From: Acidobacteriota bacterium
GTDB lineage: Bacteria; Acidobacteriota; Terriglobia; UBA7540
Reading direction: 5' to 3'
Assembly: GCA_021838785.1 (NCBI GenBank)
Contig: JAKCCV010000008.1
Coordinates: 62,001-126,000, forward strand
DNA length: 64,000 nt
Numbering within the stretch: position 1 is the first letter of the stretch; every line of letters begins with the position of its first letter. A model generated the notes under the pieces. The model saw nothing but the letters and a program-made list of their open reading frames with translations. It was not told where the DNA came from and ran no database searches. Positions 21,418 to 23,396 of this stretch are shown here, piece by piece. The translations under genes were made by a program, and so were the position numbers.

Positions 21418-21504
21418 CCATCCTAGAATCGAACCGAGGCGCAGTCAATTCGCCAGTGTCGGCTTGTGCGAAGTCCGTTCTTCCCGTAACCTGGGGTGGT
21501 GGAA

Positions 21505-22695
21505 ATGCGCTTGGCGCAGACCATGTTGTGTCCGGCGGGCGAAGAATCGGAATTGCCGGCCTTGCTCGAGCCGCGGCCCGCTGTGTTTGTGGTATTTCTT
21601 TCAGGATCGCCGGCGATGAGTTCGGCGTCGCTCGGGCCGGCGCCAGCCCGCGAGCCTTTGCCTTACCTCTCGCGCACGAGAGATTTGCGGCGTCGTCTCG
21701 CGCGGCTTCTCAAGGAGCCTCCTGAAAATTCCCGGAGGTTCAACCTGCGCGCTCTCGCACGCCGAATTGAGTTCCAATACGTCGGTTCGAATTTCGAGGC
21801 GCAATGGCTGCTCTATGGCTTGAATCGCCACTACTATCCCCGTGTTTACCGGCAACGGTTACGGTTGAAGCCGCCCGCCCTGCTCAAGATTAACCTGCGC
21901 AATCGCTTTCCCCGCTGCTATCCGACGCGGCGCCTGGCGCGGGATGGCTCGCTCTATTATGGGCCGTTTCCTTCCCGCGCCTTCGCCGAGCGTTTTGCCG
22001 CTCAATTCCTGGACTTGTTCAAAATTCGCCGCTGCGTGGAGGACCTTCATCCCGACCCGTCGCATCCCGGCTGCATTTATTCGCAGATGAAGATGTGCCT
22101 CGCGCCCTGCTTCATGGGCTGTACAGATCAAGAGTACCAAGAGGAGTTGAACCGCGTGGTCGGGTTTTTGGATGCGGGCGGACGCCCGCTGCTCGAGGGC
22201 TTGCGGCAAGAGCGCGACCGGGCCTCCGAGGCGCTCGACTTCGAGGCGGCGCAGCGGGCCCATCGAAGACTGGAAAAGGTGCAGGAGGTGTTGCGGTTCC
22301 TTCCGGAGATCGTTGGCAACATCATGCAGACCCAAGCGCTGTTGGTTCTACCCGGCGCTCAAGCGCGCTCCGTTACGTTTTTTCGGCTGGCGAGCGGCGA
22401 ATTGCGCGGACCGGGCAGGCTGCGGCTGGACGAAAACGCGCCTCGACCCGAATCCCTCGACACCATCCTTGATCGAACCGTCGCCTCGCTTCCACGCGCC
22501 TGCCCCACGCACGAAGTCCCCTCCTGGGAGCCACTGGCCCTCTTGGCGCGCTGGTATTACAGCAGCTATCGTGATGGCGAACTTCTGATGCTCCCACCCG
22601 ACGGCACGCTTCCCCACCGCCGCCTCATCCGTGTTTGCCGCAAGATCGTAGAAGGCCGCTCCAACTTGAATCCATCCGCTGCGGGCAACGGGTAG
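21505..22695 (+). CDS. UvrC-like protein lacking the C-terminal nuclease
   Basis: About 396 residues matching only the N-terminal half of UvrC. A degenerate GIY-YIG region is recognisable (AVFVVFL in place of GVYLF, PYLSRTRDLRRRLARLL in place of YVGKAKNLRRRL). A Cys cluster follows (RRCVEDLHPDPSHPGC, then MCLAPCFMGC) placed like the iron-sulfur ligands of UvrC, then a UVR motif (ALDFEAAQRAHRRLEK) that would bind UvrB. The RNase H-like domain and the HhH repeats are missing. It may be a Cho-like nuclease or a regulator of repair. The start is the ATG at 21505 behind GGGGTGG; a GTG 9 bases earlier is possible. Confidence 0.8.
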   Translation: MRLAQTMLCPAGEESELPALLEPRPAVFVVFLSGSPAMSSASLGPAPAREPLPYLSRTRDLRRRLARLLKEPPENSRRFNLRALARRIEFQYVGSNFEAQWLLYGLNRHYYPRVYRQRLRLKPPALLKINLRNRFPRCYPTRRLARDGSLYYGPFPSRAFAERFAAQFLDLFKIRRCVEDLHPDPSHPGCIYSQMKMCLAPCFMGCTDQEYQEELNRVVGFLDAGGRPLLEGLRQERDRASEALDFEAAQRAHRRLEKVQEVLRFLPEIVGNIMQTQALLVLPGAQARSVTFFRLASGELRGPGRLRLDENAPRPESLDTILDRTVASLPRACPTHEVPSWEPLALLARWYYSSYRDGELLMLPPDGTLPHRRLIRVCRKIVEGRSNLNPSAAGNG

Positions 22696-22746: not shown

Positions 22747-22788
22747 ATTCCATGGGGACTGAGTCGTGTTAACATGACCCCATGGAAT
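22747..22788 (+). promoter_or_regulatory. 11-bp inverted repeat burying a start codon
   Basis: ATTCCATGGGG (22747-22757) is a perfect inverted repeat of CCCCATGGAAT (22778-22788), with a 20-base loop. The second arm contains the ATG (22782-22784) of the peroxiredoxin-like gene. As RNA the stem would hide the start codon. A second pair, GACTCA (22724-22729) and TGAGTC (22760-22765), lies partly in the loop and could compete. No Shine-Dalgarno sequence is visible. A DNA-binding site is the alternative reading. Confidence 0.6.
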
Positions 22789-23396
22789 TTTCGTTTGAGA
22801 CGGTTCAGGGCAATTCAGCGGGTGCCGGTGCCAGCCTTCGCGTCGGCGAGAAAGTGCCCGATTTCGAGCTAGCGGATTCCGACGGGCGCCTGAGGCGCTT
22901 GTCCGAGCTGGCACAATCCGGACCCGTCGTTTTAGTCTTCTATCGCGGCCATTGGTGACCCTTCTGCCTCCGCCAGTTGGTGGACTATCGAGACTGTTTT
23001 TCAAGATTTGCGGAGACAGGAGCCACGATTGCGGGTGTTTCGGTGGACCCGCCAACCGTGTCTGCCGCCATCCGGCAGGAGCTTGGCTTGCCGTTCCCCA
23101 TCTTGTCGGATGTTCATCGCAAAGTGGTCAAGCAGTGGGGCATCCTGAACCCTCATGAGCGCGGCGGAATCGCTCAACCCTCGGTTTTTGTCATTGAGCG
23201 CGACCTTCGACTTCGCTTTCGGTCAACGGATCGGTCGAGCGCGCGGATTCCCGCCGAGCAAATTGCCGCTCTCTTGCTCAACGGAGATCAAGCTCCGCCA
23301 ACCCTACCCTCGCCGCAACGTCGCTGGCCGCGGCTGAGCGATTGGGCGCGAGCGATCCGCAACGCGATTCGCTTCCGCCGGCAACACTCATCCTAA
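22782..23396 (+). CDS. Peroxiredoxin-like selenoprotein (UGA = Sec59)
   Basis: A 204-residue AhpC/TSA-family thioredoxin-fold protein, probably a peroxidase or thiol oxidoreductase. The frame is open from ATG at 22782 except for a TGA at 22956-22958, exactly where the family has its catalytic Cys: RGHW-[TGA]-PFCLRQL against the usual W-C-P-F-C. The frame continues without defect for 146 codons after the TGA, through IAGVSVDP and PFPILSD. This is the classic selenocysteine pattern, giving a U-P-F-C redox motif. A short hairpin with GU in its loop follows the TGA. Sec-insertion genes (selA, selB, selC, selD) are not in the window. A nonsense mutation is the alternative, but the position and intact downstream frame make Sec much more likely. 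Confidence 0.85.
22969..22984 (+). promoter_or_regulatory. Candidate bacterial SECIS hairpin
   Basis: TCCGCC (22969-22974) pairs with GGTGGA (22979-22984; one G-U pair) around loop AGTT. The loop lies 20-23 bases from the U of the UGA (counting it as 1), close to the E. coli fdhF loop at 23-24, and it contains GU. The stem is short and I cannot check conservation. Confidence 0.5.

Follow-up and report, generated by a model that had tools for sequence, protein, structure and literature searches.

The window analysed here, a stretch of 64,000 nucleotides from an Acidobacteriota genome, carries on its forward strand a gene of the AhpC/TSA family that opens with an ATG at 22782, closes with a TAA at 23394-23396 and contains a TGA at 22956-22958. 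The original prediction had read this TGA as the selenocysteine (Sec) codon of a peroxiredoxin-like protein, lying at the redox site (RGHW-TGA-PFC) of a frame that is otherwise open and has its family landmarks intact. In fact, ATG, TGA and TAA all share one frame, the sole internal TGA is codon 59, and 145 codons follow it (146 counting the stop). The read-through product, 204 amino acids long (22782-23396), has U59 embedded in FYRGHW-U-PFCLRQL, and both the IAGVSVDP and the PFPILSD landmarks are there. Cys62, the partner of Sec59 in the UxxC motif, is encoded at 22965-22967 on the same strand; peroxiredoxins have their peroxidatic Cys at the aligned position.

Homology spans the TGA because the PF00578 (AhpC/TSA) match covers residues 21-145, on both sides of the codon (E 3.6e-31; 108.1 bits, with the curated cut-off at 26). 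The profile for SelL-related redox proteins (NF040769) scored 47.8 bits, below its curated cut-off of 120. The start ATG is also kept in a partial orthologue from the same genus (L054), and no signal peptide was apparent by eye in the protein. Positions 22782-23396 are one AhpC/TSA-family gene that encodes a Sec-containing protein. As had been foreseen for gene finders, which were expected to split or truncate it, a plain ORF list holds just a 139-amino-acid 3' fragment beginning at 22977.

The upstream neighbour is a UvrC-like ORF with a weak UVR motif (21496-22695, forward strand). It lies upstream in the same-genus genome too and was not found at orthologous loci beyond the genus. We considered an operon or functional neighbours and dropped the idea: this gene and the downstream GH3 gene are conserved within the genus only, and the UvrC-like neighbour is probably not functionally linked. 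Neither an intrinsic terminator nor a sigma-70 consensus promoter was found. A possible -10 element, TAACAT (22770-22775, forward strand), ends 6 nt before the ATG, and a TANNNT placed 6-7 nt before the start codon is shared by 9 of 27 orthologues, the window gene being one of the nine, against a background of about 0.1 per spacing. This arrangement is not a general habit of the window: among 176 candidate starts on its long ORFs, a single one has a TANNNT at spacing 6 or 7. The pattern is that of leaderless mRNAs and suggests that the selenoprotein gene may be transcribed without a leader.

Conservation of the Sec codon

When 399 genomes of the class were searched, 28 more sequences spanning the site came to light, making 29 with the window gene, and every one of them has TGA at the same codon. 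One could suppose that the TGA marks a pseudogene, a nonsense mutation or a sequencing error, and a bare ORF scan does return a truncated gene. It is not a sequencing error, however, since the same codon is TGA in 28 other homologues from the class. Also against such decay or error, coding conservation continues beyond the TGA, the same-genus orthologue keeps the TGA and is identical over all 71 bases compared from that point onward, and the genome has the Sec machinery described below. The pseudogene or error reading is effectively refuted. Among named relatives the closest is an Acidobacteria MAG, whose protein identities to two parts of the gene are 86% and 96%; plasmid records gave distant matches only, below 60% identity, the best listed being 29-39%.

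Whether homologues have Cys or Sec at residue 59 had been put forward as a check, and the answer depends on distance: class orthologues have Sec and more distant homologues have Cys. The aligned codon encodes Cys in 25 homologues from other phyla (within L023-L048), a frequency biased by the search, since these were gathered partly through the peptide pattern VFYRGHWC. In the tree most Sec orthologues form a cluster that also takes in two desulfobacterial Cys proteins; one further sequence, L111, represents a separate change between Sec and Cys. L111 belongs to a related RGRW[C/U]PYC family, seen within a single taxonomic family of the class, in which L105-L108 and L110 have Cys and L111 has Sec.

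The SECIS element

Ten bases after the TGA, as predicted, begins a hairpin with a GU-containing loop. It lies at 22969-22984 on the forward strand and consists of a 6-bp stem (TCCGCC/GGTGGA) closed by an AGTT loop (22975-22978), at a distance of 16 nt from TGA to loop. Its folding energy does not stand out from chance (z 0.31), and we dropped energy by itself as evidence; the case is carried by conservation, by covariation and by the absence of the hairpin from Cys homologues. Across the 29 sequences CAGTTGG and, with it, the AGUU loop are invariant. All 29 use CAG for Gln65 and TTG for Leu66, and TTG makes up 22% of the Leu codons elsewhere in these genes. In the stem, alignment columns 14-19 and 24-29 form standard pairs in 97% of cells versus 92.7% in shuffles, double changes occur at three pairs, and the covariation score is higher than in all 500 shuffles and in all slid versions. 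Stem pairs are kept at a mean of 5.8 of 6 in Sec genes versus 2.0 in Cys homologues.

Published constraints on bacterial SECIS (bSECIS) elements call for a loop of 3-9 nt, a stem of 4-16 bp, a G within the first two nucleotides of the loop, a UGA-to-loop distance of 16-37 nt and a minimum free energy of at most -7.5 (PMC13188914). The AGUU loop, the 6-bp stem, the G at loop position 2 and the 16-nt distance all fall within them, and so does the energy of -9.8 kcal/mol computed for the TGA plus 45 nt. Rfam gave nothing relevant near the gene. On this comparative evidence, the hairpin downstream of the TGA is a genuine bacterial SECIS element. L111 lacks the main family's hairpin (1 of 6 pairs) and presumably uses another SECIS. 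The most distant TGA homologue, L103 (genome G329), keeps 3 of 6 stem pairs; selA was not found in its genome, which is 85% complete.

Selenium machinery of the host genome

The host genome (3.4 Mb, 98% complete) encodes one full copy of SelA (3.5e-171), SelB (2.8e-105), SelD (4.6e-112) and a tRNA-Sec with anticodon tca (UCA). A genome devoid of Sec-insertion genes had been named as the outcome that would speak against the original prediction, and the genome turned out to hold selA, selB, selD and the tRNA. More widely, SelA was found in 27 of the 29 genomes with TGA sequences versus 290 of 399 overall, the two that lack it being 77% and 85% complete.

This genome contains other selenoprotein genes as well. 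Its selD (L050:989-2029, on contig C36) is itself one, with TGA at the catalytic site (MVKAAGUAAK). Three more genes of the peroxiredoxin family, L114, L115 and L117 (contigs C9, C31 and C38), also contain an in-frame TGA, here in place of the peroxidatic residue (motifs TPGU, TAGU and TPVU), and the peroxiredoxin set of the host is largely Sec-based.

From these elements we propose that the AGUU-loop hairpin, 10 bases past the UGA, would recruit SelB carrying Sec-tRNA(UCA), and that Sec would be inserted at residue 59. Insertion at this residue is very strongly supported by the comparative evidence, and we hold it to be nearly certain.

Fold and active site

An AlphaFold model built from 25 orthologues has a pLDDT of 87.7, with a low-confidence N-terminus, and its strands and helices run on to residue 202. 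Its best PDB matches are BcpB (5epf), Bcp4 (3hjp) and AhpE, at Z 21-23; the match to 5epf (Z 23.0, 2.0 A over 152 residues) indicates a peroxiredoxin fold, and the R116A structure of AhpE is also among the matches. In general, release factor 2 competes with Sec insertion. This general competition, with nothing specific to the gene, is what would favour a selenium-regulated switch, in which the UGA is sometimes read as a stop to give a 58-residue product and Sec is inserted when selenium allows. We consider such a switch very improbable: the first 58 residues form no complete domain, given that PF00578 occupies residues 21-145 and secondary structure elements extend to the end of the model.

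HMMER alignments to solved relatives pair Sec59 with the Thr/Ser of the TxxC motif and Cys62 with the peroxidatic Cys; the Arg of their K/N-R-x-x-F motif is matched by Pro133, which is invariant. We take this Arg to be the catalytic Arg of peroxiredoxins, and the aligned Pro133 would correspond to the cis-Pro of thioredoxins. Where peroxiredoxins have PxxxTxxC and the Arg, all rows have RxxxUxxC and Pro133; R55 for Pro and P133 for Arg are invariant in 25 of 25 rows, and Sec59 replaces Thr in every orthologue. The TxxU peroxiredoxins that this genome encodes retain the aligned Arg, and its ResA/TlpA-type protein (L119) has a Pro at that position. Judged from sequence, UxxC and the invariant Pro133 may form a thioredoxin-type site, in which a cis-Pro would face the redox pair. 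The initial proposal that Sec replaces the catalytic Cys of a peroxiredoxin-like protein thus stands for the peroxiredoxin-like nature and for the Sec59-Pro-Phe-Cys62 site, but the equivalent of the peroxidatic residue is Cys62, not Sec59. Sec59 would instead occupy the first position of a thioredoxin-type CxxC, and it is doubtful that the protein is a peroxiredoxin in the enzymatic sense.

The product could still act as a Sec-dependent peroxidase, in which Sec59 (or Cys62) reduces peroxides, the other residue resolves, and a thioredoxin-like partner recycles the enzyme. The PF00578 domain, the nearest folds, which are those of peroxidases, and the use of Sec at the peroxidatic position by the TxxU peroxiredoxins of the same genome all point this way. 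However, the PxxxTxxC...Arg constellation is lost, and related CxxC "PRX-like" proteins have been described without the other two residues of the triad (PMC3514251). We thus regard a peroxidase as possible, though rather unlikely. With Sec59 on the Thr, Cys62 on the peroxidatic Cys and Pro at the Arg, these residues favour a UxxC thiol-disulfide oxidoreductase over a peroxidase, and we lean towards this activity. The protein would have a peroxiredoxin fold, of the thioredoxin superfamily, with Sec59-Pro-Phe-Cys62 located where the first active-site helix begins. In thiol-disulfide exchange the attack would most likely come from the selenolate of Sec59, with Cys62 as the residue that resolves it by way of a selenenylsulfide, in the manner of thioredoxin-type CxxC enzymes. 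Taken as a whole, SECIS-directed Sec insertion yielding a UxxC product of this kind is the best explanation of the locus, at a probability of about 0.9.

Relation to known families

A "Prx-like thiol:disulfide oxidoreductase" with PF00578 and UxxC appears in reviews among the predicted selenoprotein families (PMC9312934, PMC13188914) and was already counted in 2006 (PMC1794560); its published representative is WP_010940744.1. With these proteins (UxxC/UxxU) the window protein shares the Pfam domain, the UxxC motif, the existence of Cys homologues and a Sec-decoding host. It differs in belonging to a clade with an extended RGxW-U-PFCxRQL motif, always with Sec and a common SECIS in the genomes examined. 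Membership in this known group is well supported by the domain, the motif and the Cys homologues.

Three other groups are close. PRX_like2 (cd02970) has a CxxC-type site whose second Cys is taken as the peroxidatic match, the rest of the triad being lacking (PMC3514251); set against this published description, the window protein is alike in having such a site without the rest of the triad, whereas the selenoprotein form of PRX_like2 is UxxS and the window protein is UxxC, Sec first and Cys second. Sec-peroxiredoxins (PF00578, TxxU), of which the genome has the three genes described above, have the same fold, but their Sec is peroxidatic, with Thr three residues before it and the Arg kept; in the window protein Sec stands three residues earlier and Pro replaces the Arg. 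ResA/TlpA-type oxidoreductases resemble the window protein in having a redox pair spaced by two residues and a Pro at the position of the peroxiredoxin Arg, but they have Cys at both redox positions instead of Sec and Cys. ResA is membrane-anchored or exported.

Implications

In the limited literature that could be searched, we found no description of a class-wide clade with fixed Sec and a shared SECIS. The new details are this clade-wide fixation of Sec and SECIS in the class, together with a promoter pattern that suggests leaderless mRNA. Since a plain ORF scan truncates the gene, routine annotation of genomes throughout the class is likely to overlook the protein or shorten it. The 29 sequences form an unusually clean family-specific SECIS set, with its CAGTTGG and covarying stem, which could serve to calibrate selenoprotein predictors.

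More tentatively, we envision a Sec-fixed clade of the peroxiredoxin fold in which the reactive residue has moved by one helical turn, from the peroxidatic to the thioredoxin position, and the Arg has become Pro. This might be a peroxidase scaffold that was naturally converted to a selenol disulfide reductase, expressed from leaderless mRNAs in some species. The pattern of Thr to Sec and Arg to Pro makes it a testable case of a peroxidase fold turned selenol disulfide oxidoreductase.
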